Shown here: piece by piece, positions 18,459-27,501 of the stretch
Position numbering within the stretch: position 1 is the stretch's first letter
How the letters are laid out: each line of letters opens with the position of its first letter
Source: Comamonas suwonensis
Lineage (GTDB): Bacteria > Pseudomonadota > Gammaproteobacteria > Burkholderiales > Burkholderiaceae_C
DNA: 64,000 nt
Assembly: GCF_012844455.2 (NCBI RefSeq)
Contig: NZ_JABBCQ020000018.1
Coordinates: forward strand, 1 to 64,000
Reading direction: 5' to 3'
Translations under genes and position numbers: made by a program
Notes under the pieces: model-generated
Databases searched by the model: none
The model's input: the letters and a program-made list of their open reading frames with translations, nothing else
Told to the model about the DNA's origin: nothing

Positions 18459-19088
18459 TCACTCAATCACGCTGCCCAGCGCATTGACGGCCGCCACCGT
18501 GATGGCAGAGCCTCCCAACCGGCCCTTCACCACGGCAAAGGGAATGCCACCCCATTGCTCCAGTGCATCCTTGGACTCCGCTGCGCCCACAAAGCCCACC
18601 GGGCAGCCGATGATGGCCGCCGGGCGCGGACAGTCAGGGTTTTGCAGCATATTTAGCAGATGAAACAGCGCAGTCGGCGCATTGCCAATGGCCACCACGG
18701 CGCCTGCCAGATGCGGCCGCCACAGCTCCAGTGCAGCAGCGCTTCGGGTGTTGCCCATTTGTTTCGCCAGATCGGGAACAGCTGGATCGTTCAGGGTGCA
18801 GATGATGGGATTGCTGGCGGGCATGCGCTTGCGCGTGATGCCTTCGCTGACCATGCGGGCGTCGCAAAGAATGGGGGCGCCGCGCTGCAGCGCCGACTCG
18901 GCGGCCACTGCAAAGTCAGGCGAGAAGCGAATATGCGCAGCCAGCTCGACCATGCCTGCGGCATGAATCATGCGACAGGCCACACGCTCTTCCAGAGTGG
19001 TAAAGCGCTTTAGATCGGCTTCCCGGCGAATGATGGCAAAGGACTGCCGGTAAATCTCGTCACCTTGGGTTTCGTATGTGTAGGTCAT
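18459..19088 (-). CDS. cobH: Precorrin-8X methylmutase CobH
   Basis: Moves the C11 methyl to C12, giving hydrogenobyrinate. The 209-residue product contains RMIHAAGMVE with the catalytic histidine (His42), then DARMVSEGI and GNAPTALFHLL, all conserved in CobH/CbiC. The start ATG lies 29 bases inside the end of cobG, a larger overlap than elsewhere in this operon, but no later ATG fits the family N-terminus. Confidence 0.95.
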   Translation of the reverse strand: MTYTYETQGDEIYRQSFAIIRREADLKRFTTLEERVACRMIHAAGMVELAAHIRFSPDFAVAAESALQRGAPILCDARMVSEGITRKRMPASNPIICTLNDPAVPDLAKQMGNTRSAAALELWRPHLAGAVVAIGNAPTALFHLLNMLQNPDCPRPAAIIGCPVGFVGAAESKDALEQWGGIPFAVVKGRLGGSAITVAAVNALGSVIE

Positions 19089-20352
19089 GAATGAGGGTCG
19101 AAATATGGCTCGGCTCTTGACGCAATGCCTGAGTCGAAATTTGAGAAAACGGTTGCTGGGGCAGATTCGGCCAGCTCAGATTCAGCAGCGCTTGCCCTGA
19201 GTCACCAGCGGGCACCCCAGTTCCAATCAAGACTGCCGTGGCCTCCGGCGAAAGTGCGCAGCACTTGGCACAGCCGCTGACATGAACATGGGTCTGAGGC
19301 GGTACATGGGGCGCCAACACCAGGGCCAGCTCCCGCGACGCCAGCACTGCCTGGGTGCATCGCGGTGCCCCGGTGCAGGCAGAAACCCGTAAACGGGCAT
19401 CGTCTGCCTCTGTGATCCAGTGCGCGGACGAGAAAAACCGCGCAGCAATGGCCTCGTCCGCGCAGAACAAAGAGCGCCACGGCGTAACGCGGATCTCTGT
19501 CTGAGGTGATATAGGTTTCAAGGCCTCAAGCAAAGCCGCCGCGCTGATTCGGCCCATGGGCGCGCCGATCACGTGACCGGACTGCGCCCATTGACCAGGC
19601 AGGGCAGCAACTGCTGCCACCGAGTTGTCAGCCCTAAACTCCGCCAACTTGAGACAGGGCAGCTTCAACGCATGCAGCGGCAGCAGCTGGCGCAAACGAG
19701 TGAAAGTGGGGACGGGGATGGGCGCAATAGCTGTACGCTCTTTGGCAAACCACAGCGCCACCGCCAATGCCGCGGCAACCACTTCGGCTGCGCCGTCAAA
19801 CGCATACCAGCCAGATTGCTCGCCCAGCGCCAGCCCGTAGCGCTCGTCCGCCGTCACCCAGACGGATATATCGGCGGCAATACCTCGCATACGTCGCTGT
19901 GCATCATCCACCGCCAAGCCAAATTTACTGGGCAATGCATCGACTCCCTGACGTTGCAGTGCATTCGGCGAAAGTTGAGCCATCACTGCCTGCGACAGCA
20001 ACAAGGCAAGGGCATGGGTCAAATCCCCCTGCTTATAAAACGGCGTGCAATGCACGGCCGGAGCCTGATCGGCATCGGCATCTGCGGGCACCAGTCGCGC
20101 CTCAACCAGTCTTGAGCGAACTGCTGACAAATGCGCTTCGCTGACGCCGCGCAACTGCACGCTGCCCAGCCTTGTCAGCTCGATCTCGGGGTGAGCACAG
20201 GACAGCGACAGCTCGGCCAGTACCGTCCATTGCTGGGCGTTAATGGATGCGCAATGCGGGCGCACGCGCACAATCCAGCCGTCCTGCGCCTGCATGGGAG
20301 CCCACGCCGTAGGGCACCAGCCCTGCACCTTGATGGCCGCACTCTTATGCAT
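19060..20352 (-). CDS. cobG: Precorrin-3B synthase CobG (oxygen-dependent)
   Basis: Iron-sulfur monooxygenase that uses O2 to form precorrin-3B, marking the aerobic pathway. The 430-residue product has sulfite/nitrite reductase-like repeats and the 4Fe-4S cysteine set: Cys326 and Cys332 (ACTGAPRC), then Cys361 and Cys364/365 (GCAKCC). The start MHKSAAIK overlaps the end of the VWA frame by eight bases. A longer frame reaching 20502 lies inside the upstream gene and is ignored. Confidence 0.92.
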   Translation of the reverse strand: MHKSAAIKVQGWCPTAWAPMQAQDGWIVRVRPHCASINAQQWTVLAELSLSCAHPEIELTRLGSVQLRGVSEAHLSAVRSRLVEARLVPADADADQAPAVHCTPFYKQGDLTHALALLLSQAVMAQLSPNALQRQGVDALPSKFGLAVDDAQRRMRGIAADISVWVTADERYGLALGEQSGWYAFDGAAEVVAAALAVALWFAKERTAIAPIPVPTFTRLRQLLPLHALKLPCLKLAEFRADNSVAAVAALPGQWAQSGHVIGAPMGRISAAALLEALKPISPQTEIRVTPWRSLFCADEAIAARFFSSAHWITEADDARLRVSACTGAPRCTQAVLASRELALVLAPHVPPQTHVHVSGCAKCCALSPEATAVLIGTGVPAGDSGQALLNLSWPNLPQQPFSQISTQALRQEPSHISTLIHDLHIRNPR

Positions 20353-20935
20353 CGCTGACCTCGTCCAGACTGATGCACTGTGCCTGCCAATGCTCGGCCA
20401 GCGCCTGGCAACGCTGCAGCCGCAGCCCATCAAGCTCCAGGTCCACAATCGTGCAACGGTCCATGCCCTGCGGCTTTTCAGGCAGTTGCGCAAAACGCCC
20501 ATCGGTCAGCAGCCAGACATGGGTTAAACGATCGGCTTTCTGGATGGCAGGCGCGAGCAATTGCAAACCCGACTCCAGAGGCGTTCCGCCGCTGCCGCCC
20601 AAAGGCGCAATCCAGCTGTCATTGAAGGCCTGAGCCTTGCCGGGCCGGGCCAGCCAGTAAGCCCCCTGACCGCCAAAGCTGATCACCCCGACATGCTCGC
20701 GATCGCGATACGCCTGCTGCATCAAGGCCAGCAAACAGCCCTTGGCACTGGCCAACTTTCCGGCACGCAGCATGGAAGCCGACATATCGAGCAGCACCAG
20801 ATGCACAACGGCAGAGCCTGCTCCATGCCTGCGATAGCGAAAATGCTCTGCGGCCAAGGCTTGCGCACCTTTGCACGTCAGAGTCCTGACCCAATCCATA
20901 CGCTGATCATTGATGGCTTGTGACCGCCCTTTCAA
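20345..20935 (-). CDS. chlD: VWA-domain part of cobalt chelatase ChlD, reached by frameshift
   Basis: This frame encodes a von Willebrand A domain with a complete MIDAS: DxSxS at residues 50-54, Thr118 in GGTPL, and Asp145 in LLTDGR (numbered from the TTG at 20935). The TTG has no ribosome site, and the frame stays open upstream past it into the end of the ChlI-like gene, with no ATG or GTG in between. It is therefore best read as the C-terminal part of a 575-residue ChlD made by a minus-one shift from the upstream frame, not as an independent gene. ChlD acts with ChlI to drive metal insertion by CobN. Confidence 0.85.
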   Translation of the reverse strand: MKGRSQAINDQRMDWVRTLTCKGAQALAAEHFRYRRHGAGSAVVHLVLLDMSASMLRAGKLASAKGCLLALMQQAYRDREHVGVISFGGQGAYWLARPGKAQAFNDSWIAPLGGSGGTPLESGLQLLAPAIQKADRLTHVWLLTDGRFAQLPEKPQGMDRCTIVDLELDGLRLQRCQALAEHWQAQCISLDEVSDA

Positions 20936-20949
20936 GACAGGGCTTGGTC

Positions 20950-21001
20950 CGCGCCCTGTTCTGGTTTTACCGGGGTGAACAGGACGCGTCAGGCTTTTTT
21001 T
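20950..21001 (-). promoter_or_regulatory. Putative programmed -1 frameshift signal in chlD
   Basis: On the minus strand the ChlI-like frame ends ACA AAA AAA GCC TGA: a run of seven A (20995-21001) forms the slippery A_AAA_AAA. Six bases later begins a stem-loop whose 12-base arms (20977-20988 and 20950-20961) pair completely, with one G-U, around a 15-base loop. A minus-one slip continues AGC CTG ACG into the open VWA frame. A purine-rich GAGTTGAGG lies about 11 bases upstream, like the stimulator in dnaX. Programmed frameshifting in chlD cobalt chelatase genes is, from memory, described by Antonov. Confidence 0.85.
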
Positions 21002-22071
21002 GTGTGTAGCGGCCTCAACTCTTTGATGGTTTGAATGCCCACTTGCTGCGGCGCGGCCATGCCGCCCCAGCCGTCGGAGTTCGCAGCACCGCCACTATCC
21101 TGTGGAGCATCAGTCGACGCTGCAGACGGCTCGGGTTGGCTCTGGGCTTGCGAATCTTCGAGCTGCGACTGCGGCTTTTCCGCAGGCGGAACCGGCGGGT
21201 GAACCTGAGGATGGCGGCGATGGGCCAAGGCCAGCTCTGCCACCTTGGCCACGTCAGAACCCGCCACCTCGGCGCGGCTCTGCAGCGCTGCATGGGCACG
21301 AGCGGCGCGCAACATGACCAGATCGGCACGCACGCCCTCGACTTGCGCCTGCTGACAGAGATCGGCCACCTGATCGAAGACCGACTCAGGCCAGCTCACC
21401 GCATCAAGCCTTGCCCTGGCCTGGAGCACCTGCTCAGCCAGTTGCGCTTGCGCATCGGCATGACGGGCGACAAACAAAGACGGCTCTGCATCAAACGCCA
21501 TGCGGGTGCGCACAATGCGCTTGCGTGCCTGTGCATCGAGCACATTCGTCAGGCGCACAAAGAGGCCGAATCGGTCCAGCAGCTGTGGGCGCAGCTGCCC
21601 CTCTTCCGGGTTCATGGTGCCCGCTAGAGCGATGCGAGCCGCATGCTGATGCGATACACCATCGCGTTCGACGCGATTGATGCCGCTGGCGCTGACATCC
21701 AACAGCAGATCCACCAAGCCATCGGGCAGCAGATTGACCTCATCCACATACAGCAGGCCCTGATGCGCCTGTGCCAGCAAACCGGGCTTGAACTGCACTT
21801 CGGAATGCTTGAGCGCAGCCTGTAAATCCAGCGAGCCCTGCAGCTGTTCCTCGGTCGTACCCAGCGGCAGGTTCACAAAGCGGCCGGCGGGCAACAAGTC
21901 GGCCAACGCACGGGCCGCCGTGGACTTGGCGGTACCGCGCGGCCCTTCCACCAGCACGCCGCCCAATAGCGGGTCCACCGCCAGCAGCAGCAAAGCCAGC
22001 TGCAACTGAGGCTGGCCTTCAATCGCCGTGAACGGAAAACAAGGCATTTCGTTCTTGGGTGCAGCGCTCAT
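20989..22071 (-). CDS. chlD: ChlI-like AAA+ ATPase subunit of cobalt chelatase (frame-0 product of chlD)
   Basis: AAA+ motor for cobalt insertion by CobN. The 360-residue frame-0 product has Walker A GPRGTAKS (43-50), Walker B LLYVDEVN (106-113) and the arginine-finger/lid region up to about 285. Residues 291-355 form a Pro/Gln/Ser-rich linker that a plain ChlI would lack but that joins the AAA+ and VWA domains in ChlD. It stops two codons after a slippery A7. The ATG overlaps the cobN stop (ATGA). No cobS/cobT are seen, so the ChlI/ChlD type of chelatase is used. Confidence 0.9.
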   Translation of the reverse strand: MSAAPKNEMPCFPFTAIEGQPQLQLALLLLAVDPLLGGVLVEGPRGTAKSTAARALADLLPAGRFVNLPLGTTEEQLQGSLDLQAALKHSEVQFKPGLLAQAHQGLLYVDEVNLLPDGLVDLLLDVSASGINRVERDGVSHQHAARIALAGTMNPEEGQLRPQLLDRFGLFVRLTNVLDAQARKRIVRTRMAFDAEPSLFVARHADAQAQLAEQVLQARARLDAVSWPESVFDQVADLCQQAQVEGVRADLVMLRAARAHAALQSRAEVAGSDVAKVAELALAHRRHPQVHPPVPPAEKPQSQLEDSQAQSQPEPSAASTDAPQDSGGAANSDGWGGMAAPQQVGIQTIKELRPLHTKKA

Positions 22072-25000
22072 CGCATCTCCAGCATCTGCTCTGTCTGCAG
22101 CAAATGCTGCTCCAGCATGGGTTGATAGTCGGCAGCGTCCTGCCACAGGCCGCGCTGAATGGCTTCCAGCAGGCGCTCGCACATGCCCTGAAAGGCCTGC
22201 GGGTTGTGCTTTTGCATGAAGGCCCGGGTGTGCTCATCGCTCACAAAGGCATCGGTGACGCGCGCATATTGGTCATCGCGCACCACACGGGCCGTGGCAT
22301 CAAAGGCAAACAGATAGTCCACCGTGGCGGCAATCTCAAAAGCGCCTTTGTAGCCATGGCGCTTGACGCCATCTATCCATTTGGGATTGGTCACGCGGGA
22401 GCGCACCACGCGGCTGATCTCCTCCTGCAGCGTGCGCATGCGCGGCGATTCAGGATTGCTGTGATCACCAAAGTACAGGGTCGGCTGCTGACCGCTGAAA
22501 TGGCGCACCGCCGCCGCCATGCCGCCTTGAAACTGGTAGTAGTCGTCAGAGTCCAGCAAGTCATGCTCGCGGTTATCCTGGTTGTGCACCACCAGCTGCA
22601 TATCGGAGAGCCGACGCACAAAGGTCTCGGGCACGGCCGTGCCATCATCCTTTTGCCCGTAGGCATAGGCACCCCAGTTGCGATAGGCAGTGGCCAGGTC
22701 TTCGTCGCTGTCCCAGTTGCGCCCGTCGATCAGCCCTTGCAAACCCGCGCCATAGCTGCCGGGCTTGGCACCAAAGACACGCAACCCGGCCTGATGGCGG
22801 GCATCCGCCTGCTCCATGCCTCGCGCGCTCAGCAGCTGAGCCTCACGCAGTACGCGCGCCCGGATGGGGTTGGTGAATTCATCCTCGTCCTCAAGAGCCG
22901 CCACCTTCTGCACGGCGGCATCAAACAAGCGAATGACATTGGTGAATGCATCGCGAAAAAAGCCAGACACACGCAGCGTCACATCGACCCGCGGGCGCCC
23001 TACCACCGACATGGGCAGCACTTCGAAATCACTGACGCGCCAGCTGCCGCCCGCCCAGGTCGGGCGCACACCCAGCAAGGCCAGGGCCTGGGCGATATCG
23101 TCACCGCCAGTGCGCATGGTGGCCGTGCCCCAGACCGACAGGCCAATGGACTTGGGGTACTCGCCATGCTCCTGCGCATATTTTTCCACCAGCAAATTGG
23201 CGGATTTCAAACCCAGCGTCCAACTGGTGGGTGTGGGGACAGAACGCGTATCGACCGAGAAAAAATTGCGCCCGGTGGGCAGCACATCGGGTCGGCCGCG
23301 CGTGGGGGCACCGCTGGGGCCCGCCGGAACAAAGCGCCCGGCCAGACCGCGCATCAGCTGCAGCAATTCCTGCGGGCCACATTGATTGAGGCGCGGACGC
23401 AGGTCCTGCTCCACGCGCTGCAGCACGGCCTGGGTTTGGATGAAATACGGCTCCAGCGCTTGATGAATAAGCGCATCACGCTCCAGTATCGATAGCGCCA
23501 ACAGCTCCAGTCGCTCGCGCGTATCGCCGGTATTGCGCCAGGCTTGTTCATCCACCTGCGCCAGCAAGGCGGGGCGATTGCCTGTCCATGGCTTGGCCCA
23601 GTCGGCATCCAGCGGATCAAAGTCGGCACCGAGCTTCAAGTCCTGCGCCAAAGCGCGAATCAGGCTGGCATGGGCGCCCTTGCCATTGCCAACGGGGTGG
23701 CGTGCCAGCGCCAGCAAGGTATCGCGCTCCAGTCGGTCCTGAGGCGAGCAGCCGAAGACATGCAGCCCATCGCGTATCTGGCTTTCCTTGAGCTCGCACA
23801 GATAGGCATCGGTCTTGTTGAGCAGAAGCTGCTCGTCTTCCTCAGAGCGCGGTGCGGCCAGTCCCAGATCCTGGTGCAGGTCGTGGGCCACGATGTGCGC
23901 CAGAATCTGCTTGCGCAGGAGCTTGGCGCGCCGCCCGTCCAGCGTCACCGCTTCGTAATACTCGTCCACCATGCGCTCCAGATCCCGCGTCGCACCATAG
24001 CTTTCGGCACGCGTCAGCGGCGGCATCAGGTGATCGATGATGACGGCCTGGGCGCGGCGCTTGGCCTGCGTTCCCTCACCCGGATCGTTGACGATGAAGG
24101 GGTAGAGATGCGGCATGGGCCCAAAGACCAGATCTGGCCAGCAGGTCTGAGACAAGGCCACGCTTTTCCCCGGCAGCCACTCCATATTGCCGTGCTTGCC
24201 CACGTGCACAAAGGCATCTGCTGCCCACGCGCTGCGCAGCCAGAAGTAAAACGCCAGGTAGTAGTGCGGCGGCACCAGATCGGGATCGTGGTAGCTGGCC
24301 ATAGCATCGAGCTGATAGCCACGCGCGGGCTGAATGCCTACGAACACCTGACCCAGACGCAGACCCGCAATCATGAAGCGGCTGTTGCGCAGCATGGGGT
24401 CTTGCTGGGGCGTTCCCCAGCGCTGCAGAACAGCTTGCCGGTTTTCATCGGGCAGGCTGTCAAAAAAGCGCTGATAGCTCTCCAGATCCAGACTTTGCCA
24501 GGCAGGCCGCAGCTGCCAGGAATCCGGATCGTTGGTCACACCATGCTGCAGCTGCTCCATCAGGGCATCGCCATCGGCAGGCAGGGCATCCAGCGCATAG
24601 CCCTGGCGTTCCAGCTCCTGCAGGATTTGAATGACCGAGGCCGGTGTATCCAGTCCCACGCCGTTGCCGATGCGCCCTTCCTTGGTCGGGTAGTTGGCCA
24701 GAATCAGCGCCAGCCGTTTGTCAGCATTGGACTTGGCGCGCAAGTCGCACCAGCGCCTTGCCAGCTCCACCACAAAGCCCATGCGCTCGGTATGCGCCTG
24801 GTACTGCACCACATCGGACTGCGTAAGTTCGCTGCGATGCGACAGCCCCTTGAAGCTGATGGCCCGCGTGATGATGCGACCATCCACCTCAGGCATGGCG
24901 ACATGCATGGCGATGTCGCGTGGCTGCAGACCATGCGCATCATTGAGCCAGCTTTGCTCGTTGCCGCCCGACAGAATCAGTTGCAGCACCGGAATATCAC

Positions 25001-25877
25001 CCGCCAGCGCATAATCGCCCGGGGCCTCCAGTGAGGACTGAGAAAACGCCGTGGTATTGAGAATCAGCGCCACCTGATGCTCAGCGCAAAGGCCATGCAG
25101 CATCTCAAGGCAGGCAGCATCCTTGAGTGACAGCAACGCCAAGGGCAAGGGATTCAAGCCATTGGCCAGCAATTGCGCACACAAGGCATCAAAAACCTGG
25201 GTGTTGCCAGACTGCAAATGCGCGCGGTAGAAGACCACCAGTACCACGGGTGCGCCAGCGTCCCAGCGCATGCCTGCGCCTTGCTGCCAGCACTCTACCG
25301 AAGCATGCCCATCCGGGTGGTACATCGAGACGGCAGGCAGCGGTCTTGGCGGCAATGGCTGCTGCGGGCCCTGCAGAAATTCCTGCCACAGATAACAGAA
25401 CAGCTCGCGCGCATTCGCGGCCCCGCCTTCACGCAGATAGCGCCACAGCGTGCGACATTGCTCTTTGCTGGCCGTGCTTTTCTGCAGCAGATTCAAGTCT
25501 TCGGTGGTATCACCCGAGAACATCACCAGCGCAATGCCCTTGCTGCGGCAAATTTCGCGCACGCGATCGGTGCCATAGGGCCAGTAGCTTTCCCCTCCAA
25601 GGTGGTCAATCACAATCACCTTGGCATGCTGCAGCACCTCGTCGACATACAGATCGACCGAGGCGGGCTGGCGCAAATACATCAGATTGGCGAGGCGCAC
25701 CGTCGGCAACTGCTCACCGTTCACTCCCGATTGCAGCTGCGCATACGCATCGGCCAGCAACGCCAGCGTGGTATCCGCCGCGCTCAGAATCACGATCTGG
25801 CCGGGCGTCTGCGCCATGCTGGCAACAAAGGCTTCATCATCGACAAAGCCACCGGGTTGAACGGCAAGCAGATGCAT
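22068..25877 (-). CDS. cobN: Cobaltochelatase large subunit CobN
   Basis: CobN binds hydrogenobyrinic acid a,c-diamide and inserts cobalt with help from the AAA+/VWA subunits. The 1269-residue product is full length for the family, with GGESYWPYGTDRVREI near the N-terminus, a central stretch with VHVGKHGNMEWLPGKS and a late WGTATMRTGGDDIAQA, all typical of the CobN/BchH group. The start shares one base with the cobW stop. It lies between cobW and chlD as in many proteobacterial clusters. Confidence 0.96.
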   Translation of the reverse strand: MHLLAVQPGGFVDDEAFVASMAQTPGQIVILSAADTTLALLADAYAQLQSGVNGEQLPTVRLANLMYLRQPASVDLYVDEVLQHAKVIVIDHLGGESYWPYGTDRVREICRSKGIALVMFSGDTTEDLNLLQKSTASKEQCRTLWRYLREGGAANARELFCYLWQEFLQGPQQPLPPRPLPAVSMYHPDGHASVECWQQGAGMRWDAGAPVVLVVFYRAHLQSGNTQVFDALCAQLLANGLNPLPLALLSLKDAACLEMLHGLCAEHQVALILNTTAFSQSSLEAPGDYALAGDIPVLQLILSGGNEQSWLNDAHGLQPRDIAMHVAMPEVDGRIITRAISFKGLSHRSELTQSDVVQYQAHTERMGFVVELARRWCDLRAKSNADKRLALILANYPTKEGRIGNGVGLDTPASVIQILQELERQGYALDALPADGDALMEQLQHGVTNDPDSWQLRPAWQSLDLESYQRFFDSLPDENRQAVLQRWGTPQQDPMLRNSRFMIAGLRLGQVFVGIQPARGYQLDAMASYHDPDLVPPHYYLAFYFWLRSAWAADAFVHVGKHGNMEWLPGKSVALSQTCWPDLVFGPMPHLYPFIVNDPGEGTQAKRRAQAVIIDHLMPPLTRAESYGATRDLERMVDEYYEAVTLDGRRAKLLRKQILAHIVAHDLHQDLGLAAPRSEEDEQLLLNKTDAYLCELKESQIRDGLHVFGCSPQDRLERDTLLALARHPVGNGKGAHASLIRALAQDLKLGADFDPLDADWAKPWTGNRPALLAQVDEQAWRNTGDTRERLELLALSILERDALIHQALEPYFIQTQAVLQRVEQDLRPRLNQCGPQELLQLMRGLAGRFVPAGPSGAPTRGRPDVLPTGRNFFSVDTRSVPTPTSWTLGLKSANLLVEKYAQEHGEYPKSIGLSVWGTATMRTGGDDIAQALALLGVRPTWAGGSWRVSDFEVLPMSVVGRPRVDVTLRVSGFFRDAFTNVIRLFDAAVQKVAALEDEDEFTNPIRARVLREAQLLSARGMEQADARHQAGLRVFGAKPGSYGAGLQGLIDGRNWDSDEDLATAYRNWGAYAYGQKDDGTAVPETFVRRLSDMQLVVHNQDNREHDLLDSDDYYQFQGGMAAAVRHFSGQQPTLYFGDHSNPESPRMRTLQEEISRVVRSRVTNPKWIDGVKRHGYKGAFEIAATVDYLFAFDATARVVRDDQYARVTDAFVSDEHTRAFMQKHNPQAFQGMCERLLEAIQRGLWQDAADYQPMLEQHLLQTEQMLEMR

Positions 25878-26953
25878 CAGATCGCTCCGACCGACAGGGC
25901 GTTCAATTCAGCAGTGATGGCACTTTCATCAAGGTCATGACCGATGAAAACCAGATAGGTCTGACGCTCTTCGCCTGCGCGCCACATGCGGTCAAAGTAG
26001 CTGTCAAAGCGCTTGCCTACGCCATGGATCACCAGTCGCATCGGTTTACCTGGCAAAGCCACAAAGCCCTTGATGCGGTAGACCGTGTGCTCAGCCACGA
26101 TCTTTTCCATGGCCTGAAACAAGGCTGCGCGCTCCAACTCGGGCAGCTTGATGACGATGGAGTCAAAGTCGTCGTGGTCATGTTCATCATGGGAATGACC
26201 GTCTTCGTGCTCATGGTGGCCCATGCGCTGGTCAATCGTTTCCTCCGATGCGCTGGACAGACCCAGCACCACATCCAGATCAATACGGCCATGGTCGGCG
26301 GCCACAATCTTGACCTGCGCGGGTACTTCCTCGCGCACGATTTCTTCGACCCGGGCGCGATCTTCGGCCCTCGCCTGATCCAGCTTGGTCAGCACCACCA
26401 GGTCGGCAGAGATCAACTGGTCTTCAAACAGCTCATGCAGCGGTGATTCATGATCGAGATTCGGATCCTGTTTGCGCTGCGCATCCACCGCTGCCGGGTT
26501 GGCGGCAAACTGGCCAGCGGCAGTGGCGGGAACATCGACCACCGTAATCACGGCATCCACCGTACAGGCGTTCTTGATCTCGGGCCAGTTAAAGGCTTGG
26601 ACCAGAGGCTTGGGCAAAGCCAGACCACTGGTCTCGATCAGGATATGGTCAATCTCACCGCGTCGCTCAATCAGCTCGCGCATCACGGGATAGAACTCTT
26701 CCTGCACCGTGCAGCACAGGCAGCCATTGGCCAGCTCATAGAGCTTGCCGCCCTGCTCGCCAGCCTCGTCTTCGCACCCAATCCCGCAGCCGCGCAAAAT
26801 GTCGCCGTCAATGCCCAGCTCGCCAAACTCGTTGACGATGACGGCAATGCGACGGCCGTTGGCGTTTTGCAAAATGTGGCGCAATAAAGTCGTTTTACCG
26901 CTACCCAGAAAGCCAGTCACGATGGTGGCGGGGATTTTTTTACTGCTATTCAA
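25877..26953 (-). CDS. cobW: CobW, G3E-family GTPase, presumed cobalt chaperone
   Basis: CobW is thought to supply Co(II) to CobN. With a TTG start at 26953 (GGAG seven bases upstream) the product has 358 residues: Walker A GFLGSGKT at 14-21, the metal-site motif CLCC at 78-81, a TKLD guanine motif, a His/Asp-rich loop ([17 protein letters not shown]) and the CobW C-terminal domain. An ATG at 27073 would add 40 residues without similarity to the family. A second cysteine pair (about 56 and 60) lies before CLCC. First gene after the riboswitch. Confidence 0.93.
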
Positions 26954-27501
26954 AGCTCTACTCCAGTTATTCAAGGTGAGAGGAAGCCGCTGGTTCTTGC
27001 TCGTTGTCGCTGCGGCAGTACCGGTTTGCAGTGCATGTGACTCACTCAGGCTCACTCGCCTTTGAGGAACCACCGCTGCTTGTCGTCAAAGGCGCACAGC
27101 TCTACCGCAAAGCCCTTGATGACTTGCACTAATAGGTATGGGTGAGTGCTGTGCTGGCCATGCGTGCCGAAGTCACGGAGTGATCGTCAGCAGCCGCAGA
27201 GGCTCGCCACAGATTTCGCAGAAAACGCAGTGGTATGGGCTTTGCCCAGACGCCATTGAAAATGGACGCCTCGCAGCGCTGTGCAGACAGGTTGTCTGCA
27301 GGCGGTTTGCTGGCTGGCTTGTTTGGATGCGTCATGCATTGCGCATGCGCTTGAATGAACTGTTCGTCCATGCTCTCCCCGAGCTAAAGGCGATAAAACC
27401 CATTCCGAGGAGCGAACGACAGCCAGGGAAACCATGACGTGCATCAGAGTACACATAGCTTCGCCCGCGAACACCACGCCCCGTGGAACAAGACCGAGAA
27501 C
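26954..27501. other. Long leader between riboswitch and cobW
   Basis: About 550 bases. On the minus strand a reading frame 27129-27371 (80 codons, ATG preceded closely by GGGGAGA) could be translated, but its product has no membrane segment, no repeated motif and no family I know, so it is not called as a gene. No CbtA/CbtB-type cobalt transporter was found here. A GC-rich hairpin (CCACG/CGTGG, near 27475) lies just after the riboswitch without a U-run. Confidence 0.5.

Follow-up and report, generated by a model that had tools for sequence, protein, structure and literature searches.

A single minus-strand gene of Comamonas suwonensis, lying in the 64,000-nucleotide stretch of DNA analysed here (the window), very probably makes both a ChlI-like and a ChlD-like partner for the adjacent CobN by programmed −1 ribosomal frameshifting, and we place the probability of this reading at about 0.88. 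The phenomenon is already published, and the gene is a further fs-chlD (fs-chlID) case. Most ribosomes would stay in frame 0 and stop at a TGA codon, giving a 360-aa ChlI-like AAA+ ATPase. A fraction of the ribosomes would pause on the heptamer A_AAA_AAA while tRNA-Lys occupies both the P and the A site, the pause being held by pairing of a Shine–Dalgarno (SD)-like GAGG with 16S rRNA behind and by a 12-bp stem ahead. A back-slip of one base would then lead to a 575-aa ChlD-like protein that contains the shared AAA+ part, a linker and a VWA domain. Together, the two products would form an AAA+ motor working with CobN in the oxygen-dependent B12 pathway. What we observed is the sequence signal, its conservation, compensatory changes in the stem and the gene context.

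Junction architecture and gene context

Read directly from the minus strand, the junction is CTA CAC ACA AAA AAA GCC TGA. The slippery heptamer A_AAA_AAA occupies 20995–21001 in the register for a shift from frame 0 to −1, and the frame-0 stop TGA (20989–20991) is the second codon past the slip codons. A 6-nt spacer, GCCTGA, separates the heptamer from a 12-bp stem, the putative stimulator, whose arms, identified from RNA folding and from pairing and covariation across loci, lie at 20977–20988 (5′) and 20950–20961 (3′). Folding of the 81 nt at 20930–21010 gives exactly this stem at −23.8 kcal/mol (z = −2.48; three of 200 shuffles were equally stable). The frame-0 ORF (20989–22071, minus strand) starts at the ATG 22071–22069, which overlaps the cobN stop as ATGA, and encodes 360 aa: a ChlI-like AAA+ ATPase followed by a Gln/Pro/Ser-rich linker with the C-terminus HTKKA-stop. 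The −1 frame (20345–20995, minus strand) reads AGC CTG ACG and remains open for 216 codons, from AGC (20995–20993) to TAA (20347–20345), encoding a linker and a VWA (MIDAS) domain of 216 aa in total that matches Pfam VWA_2. Its first ATG, GTG or TTG past the slip is the TTG at 20935, and the interval from the SD-like site to the stem of the C. suwonensis gene contains no start codon. With the shift, the predicted product is 575 aa. The first-pass annotation had claimed a heptamer in the right frame, a stop two codons on, a six-base spacer, a stem-loop that folding should recover, a −1 frame open without ATG or GTG, and products of 360 and 575 aa; all of this holds, and the stem-loop agrees base for base.

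The identity of the two halves was assessed separately. The frame-0 part matches Pfam AAA_lid_2 and AAA_5, and its best solved relative is the 38 kDa Mg-chelatase subunit ChlI (1g8p; 252 bits), while the −1 part matches the VWA domain of ChlD, the 60 kDa subunit (2x31; 45 bits). We take GPRGTAKST to be Walker A, LLYVDE to be Walker B and DMSAS to be the MIDAS motif. Against the putative cobaltochelatase model TIGR02442, the halves scored separately reach 389 and 56 bits; both are below the cut-off of 779, as expected when the gene is split.

Directly upstream on the same strand lies cobN (22068–25877), the aerobic cobaltochelatase large subunit (TIGR02257, 1618 bits; cut-off 822), followed by cobW (25877–27073, minus strand; TIGR02475, 517 bits, above the cut-off). 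Downstream is a cobG-like gene (19060–20352, minus strand) that scores 179 bits with TIGR02435, under the cut-off of 234.8. We chose the ATG 20352–20350 as its likely start; the ORF list opens further up, at 20502. CobH-, CobI- and CobJ-like enzymes are also among the neighbours, and the surroundings of the fs-chlD gene, judged from these sequence matches, form an aerobic B12 cluster. Since the VWA frame ends in an overlap with the probable ATG of cobG (20345–20352), only frameshifted ribosomes would terminate beside the cobG start. Translational coupling of cobG to the slip event is possible.

Conservation of the heptamer, stop, stem and SD-like element

An orthologue was found in 39 of 53 genomes of the genus, including C. 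suwonensis (E = 3.7e-43 or better); the remaining 14 gave no match or one of E = 1.9e-10 and worse. The genus as used here takes in Delftia, and named records with this protein include Comamonas and Delftia. All 39 loci were analysed (L042 lacks its start because of a contig end), and every one of them has A AAA AAA in the slip register and the VWA part in the −1 frame. The search of the family covered 250 genomes and returned 66 matches at E ≤ 1e-50. Two of them belong to the genus itself, 25 come from other genera with E = 6.4e-86 or better, and the remaining 39 are weaker (1.1e-63 to 1.9e-53). The 25 orthologues from other genera show the same heptamer in register and the same −1 relation without exception. 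Three of the weaker matches were examined (L068–L070); they look BchI-type and were left out of the 25. The DNA examined for L069 and L070 contains no VWA match, and that for L068 has one only about 1.2 kb distant. The N-terminal parts of the 64 family orthologues (68,528 nt) contain no other A7, and AAA accounts for just 62 of their 254 other lysine codons, whereas A7 stands in the slip register in 64/64. The in-register conservation of the heptamer is thus far above chance.

At the phylum level, a match at E ≤ 1e-65 was present in 29 of the 398 genomes, of which four are the own genome and three orthologues already analysed. The 25 new orthologues are 19 frameshift genes (four with A7 and 15 with A6G) and six in-frame fusions. 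Five further distant loci were chosen for their split ORF, namely four Pseudomonas records and one from Lampropedia (L083). All 24 distant frameshift loci have the heptamer in register with a −1 VWA part, as A7 in four, A6G in 19 and A6C in one; the four named Pseudomonas records are all A6G. The Lampropedia locus (about 4121–4140 of L083) has A_AAA_AAC, retains the 6-nt spacer and the stem, and has ATGA at the stop. An in-register heptamer is therefore kept by every non-fused orthologue analysed in the genus, family, phylum and named-record sets. More distant loci include in-frame fusions (e.g. in Pedobacter and several archaea) and separate chlI and chlD genes, and L109, L110 and L112 are three further split loci with A runs.

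A frame-0 stop soon past the heptamer is kept in all 64 family orthologues, 3 or 24 nt after it. Counted from the first base of the heptamer, the stop is at 10 nt in 24 of the 39 genus loci and at 31 nt in the other 15; among the 25 loci from other genera, the corresponding numbers are 23 and two. The 31-nt layout, found in 17/64 family orthologues (L026, L028–L041, L058 and L064), places the stop within the stem-loop and not between the heptamer and the stem.

Conservation of the stem was tested with the 5′ arm fixed 6 nt past the heptamer and the eight outer pairs scored. All eight pairs form in 37 of the 39 genus loci and seven in the other two, and 11 other offsets give eight pairs in 0–4 of 39. 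The 25 loci from other genera have eight pairs in 12 cases, seven in nine and six in four; pairing of seven out of eight is frequent by chance in G+C-rich DNA (5–18 of 39 at control offsets). Among the 24 frameshift loci further afield, 23 have all eight pairs at the 6-nt offset. The 64 loci provide 33 distinct arm pairs, in which 95.1% of cells pair compared with 64.5% after shuffling (0/500), a figure that is inflated by the choice of the best-pairing 3′ arm. In the same arm pairs, 77 cells carry two-sided changes versus 28.3 in shuffles (0/500), and the pairs with two-sided changes, seven of eight versus 5.8 (33/500), are unremarkable. We also used an unfitted alignment of ten distinct native sequences out of the 19 distinct among the 24 near-stop genus loci; nine rows that were more divergent or had a longer loop were dropped before counting. 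Here, 92.5% of cells pair versus 85.0% in shuffles, and changes on both sides occur in 12 cells versus 3.6 (both 0/500); the pairs with two-sided changes (4 versus 2.5; 74/500) and the further pair types (12 versus 10.3; 86/500) are unremarkable. Folding of the 60 nt past the heptamer gave a mean z of −2.77 over 63 distinct family junctions (60 shuffles each), with values below −2 in 46 and below 0 in 61. On this comparative evidence, a downstream structure is present at 6 nt and has undergone compensatory changes, and we regard it as the putative stimulator. Alignment of relatives had been proposed earlier as a check on the A7, the stop and compensation in the stem, and it upholds all three: the A7 and a nearby stop in 64/64, and the two-sided changes in both cell counts.

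The earlier annotation overlooked an SD-like GAGG at 21016–21013 on the minus strand, 11 nt 5′ of the heptamer. In the family this position corresponds to a conserved dip in the anti-SD pairing energy. Averaged over the 63 distinct junctions, the energy has a single sharp minimum of −5.49 kcal/mol at −15, and the lowest mean among 580 control positions (−600 to −21) is −2.06. Between −18 and −12, 44 of the 63 junctions have a strong site (−5 or better) and 19 lack one; the 83 control windows average 7.5 of 63 and never exceed 15. A second test used the motif list and the 6–17 nt spacing given in PMC4066793; 43 of the 64 family orthologues qualify, including the C. suwonensis site, compared with 9.6 on average and never more than 18 of 64 for the 48 control positions. 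At the −5 threshold, the strong site is found in three of the four order-level A7 loci and in none of the 19 A6G (Pseudomonas-type) loci. Thus, the A7 lineages mostly have a dnaX-like SD element and the A6G lineage does not. In E. coli, A_AA.A_AA.G is one of the most efficient heptamers (PMC4066793), which makes a trade-off between a stronger heptamer and an SD booster plausible. The chelatase passages of PMC3711429 and PMC5009743 do not mention an SD-like element, and the word 'Shine' is absent from PMC9227772.

Source of the small subunit and other readings of the junction

Of the 53 genus genomes, the 39 with fs-chlD all have CobN (E = 0) and 0/14 of the others do; five of these 14 have only a 31–36% identical CobN/BchH-like match. 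Within the genus CobN always lies beside fs-chlD, although in genome G006 it is interrupted by a contig end. No second ChlI was found in the C. suwonensis genome: PF01078 finds only the fs-chlD gene and a full-length Mg_chelatase-domain protein, which we take to be of the ComM/YifB type. Likewise, the 39 fs-chlD genomes of the genus contain no second match better than E = 4.3e-9. The genome does carry a CobS-like gene (499 bits; cut-off 558.6) on contig C67 and, adjoining it, a CobT-like gene (71 bits; cut-off 26.1). This AAA+ and VWA pair (L071 and L072; C67:60262–61810 of G000, minus strand) is outside the cob cluster and could in principle supply a motor.

The pair bears on a reading in which the frameshifting is real but its main output is the fused ChlD-like protein, with the short form being a by-product or a regulatory dead end and the small subunit coming from elsewhere (e.g. 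the CobS-like gene) or not being needed. We consider this reading unlikely, although it deserves more weight than the others discussed below. The CobS-like gene (E ≤ 1e-60) is present in 18 of the 53 genus genomes, 16 of the 39 with fs-chlD and two of the 14 that lack both fs-chlD and CobN, and 23 of the 39 have no CobS-like match at that threshold. Since its distribution does not track CobN, the CobS-like gene is, in our opinion, probably not the cobalt chelatase motor, and the same would hold for the pair. Nearby genes on C67 look like an IclR-type regulator and xsc, and a literature search returned nothing connecting xsc, CobS, taurine and AAA ATPase. Possibly, the pair represents mis-named cobaltochelatase genes with another job. 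A second argument for the same reading comes from six class-level relatives (L126, L134, L135, L136, L137 and L138), which have an in-frame fused ChlI–VWA gene together with CobN and no visible small-subunit gene, a second ChlI being absent at E ≤ 1e-15 and CobS at E ≤ 1e-30. Of the 19 frameshift genomes examined alongside them, none has a second ChlI at E ≤ 1e-15 either, and four have a CobS-like match (E ≤ 1e-30). A separate small subunit may therefore not be essential everywhere: in the fused-only relatives, either the fused protein suffices, or the short form arises otherwise, or the small subunit is too diverged. Against the short form being a by-product stands the nearby frame-0 stop of all 64 family orthologues, which a by-product would not need. 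The first-pass claim that one gene makes ChlI-like and ChlD subunits is supported; the CobS/CobT-like pair and the fused-only relatives weaken the case for the short form as an indispensable small subunit.

We also looked in the fused relatives for an inverted, dnaX-style slip that could shorten the product. The linkers of L134, L135, L136 and L138 contain no A/T slip site. L137 has a single A_AAA_AAT followed at once by a −1 stop; it lacks a stem, other A runs are present, and we judged it not credible. L126 has an A7 with GTCTGA in another phase and no clear stem, which we take to be a relic encoding KKSL.

Transcriptional slippage is a much less probable account, in which RNA polymerase would add or drop As at the A7 and a mixed mRNA pool would encode both products. 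The run is indeed a homopolymer; moreover, E. coli genes contain AAAAAAA less often than expected, whichever the frame, with slippage as one suggested reason (PMC4066793), and frameshift efficiency increases with A-run length (PMC3711429), a relation that either mechanism could give. However, the stem fixed at 6 nt and the SD-like site at about 10–11 nt in most family members have the geometry of ribosomal stimulators, and the Pseudomonas-type A6G, at the same distance from the stem, is a shorter run, yet a good ribosomal heptamer.

The chance is slighter still that the VWA part is a separate gene, expressed from its own start or by termination–reinitiation with no fusion. The −1 frame does hold the TTG at 20935, a −1-frame ATG overlaps the frame-0 stop in two of the 64 family orthologues (TGATG in L006 and ATGA in L066, both beside the A7), as it does in the Lampropedia locus, and some of the cassettes tested in PMC3711429 gave downstream initiation as well as frameshifting, the clusters being unspecified in the passages concerned. 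On the other hand, 35 of the 64 family orthologues have no −1-frame ATG, GTG or TTG between about −84 and +93 relative to the heptamer, and no start position in that frame is common to more than five of the 64, so internal initiation at the fs-chlD junction (ALTERNATIVES) is unlikely. A separate gene would also leave the in-register heptamer conservation unexplained. The refuting case named earlier, a disrupted A7 with a separate VWA gene that has its own start, was not found in the family set. The ATG at the stop of L006, L066 and Lampropedia suggests that reinitiation may add output in a few species, and there frameshifting and reinitiation may coexist. Finally, errors that break the frame by one base are frequent at A runs, but a broken gene or a sequencing error at the homopolymer has a negligible probability because the identical A7/−1 relation recurs in 64/64 family orthologues, each from another genome, with a co-varying stem, and this conservation excludes a decayed gene.

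Relation to known frameshifting systems and chelatases

Programmed −1 frameshifting thus remains our reading of the fs-chlD junction; slipping in C. suwonensis, its rate and the joining of both products to CobN are what we infer from the signal and its context. More tentatively, and with the odds against it as a whole, the lineages may tune the ChlI:ChlD ratio by swapping parts of the signal, the Burkholderiales using A_AAA_AAA, mostly with an SD booster, and the Pseudomonas type a stronger A_AAA_AAG without one, with the stem unchanged at 6 nt. Because the VWA frame extends to the start of cobG, the slip rate would also govern the coupled translation of that gene. Within the class, some distant relatives would have lost the frameshift and kept the fused protein only, the small subunit being dispensable or otherwise made.

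The programmed −1 frameshift family of fs-chlD was reportedly described by Antonov in 2020 (Mol Biol Evol). A prior report of chlD frameshifting, which the first-pass annotation credited to that author, is borne out by Antonov's 2013 GeneTack study (PMC3711429), whose magnesium chelatase cluster comprises 23 −1 frameshift genes from six genera, including Delftia, Pseudomonas and Burkholderia. Reporter frameshifting in E. coli was 63, 40 and 10% for three members, the 10% belonging to the 7-A site (PMC3711429). A 2016 review gives the same with A_AAA_AAR and structure potential (PMC5009743), a 2021 review mentions archaeal cases (PMC8211752), and the model of a small plus a medium subunit has been laid out with citation of Antonov 2020 (PMC9227772, Kuznetsov 2022). 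Neither PMC3711429 nor PMC9227772 names Comamonas, and a literature search returned nothing on frameshifting in Comamonas cobN. The present gene adds a cleanly documented case and an extra putative stimulator to the few cellular gene families in which −1 frameshifting is known to yield two functional subunits. With its two main heptamers, presence or absence of the SD-like site, two stop positions and in-frame fusions, the orthologue set offers a comparison for testing why a constant subunit ratio is maintained. It also carries a warning for annotation: such genes can be mistaken for broken ones, and fs-chlD genes have been annotated as two adjacent genes (PMC3711429).

With the fs-chlD family, the C. 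suwonensis gene shares the ChlI-like AAA+ part in frame 0, the VWA part in −1, the A-rich heptamer, the downstream structure and the CobN partner. The family typically, though not obligatorily, lacks a separate small-subunit gene; in C. suwonensis no second ChlI was found, and the below-cut-off CobS-like gene is present on C67. E. coli dnaX is alike in having an SD-like site upstream, an A-rich heptamer and a stem-loop downstream (PMC3711429 and PMC5600365). However, its polarity is reversed, frame 0 yielding the longer protein and the shift the shorter (PMC5009743), the opposite of fs-chlD; its heptamer is A_AAA_AAG instead of A_AAA_AAA, and the genes are unrelated. The closest functional parallels are the CobNST cobaltochelatase and the ChlIDH/BchIDH Mg-chelatases, to which the adjoining CobN and the matches of the products to ChlI and to the ChlD VWA domain correspond. 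In those enzymes, the small and medium subunits come from two genes, whereas here both would be produced from one.
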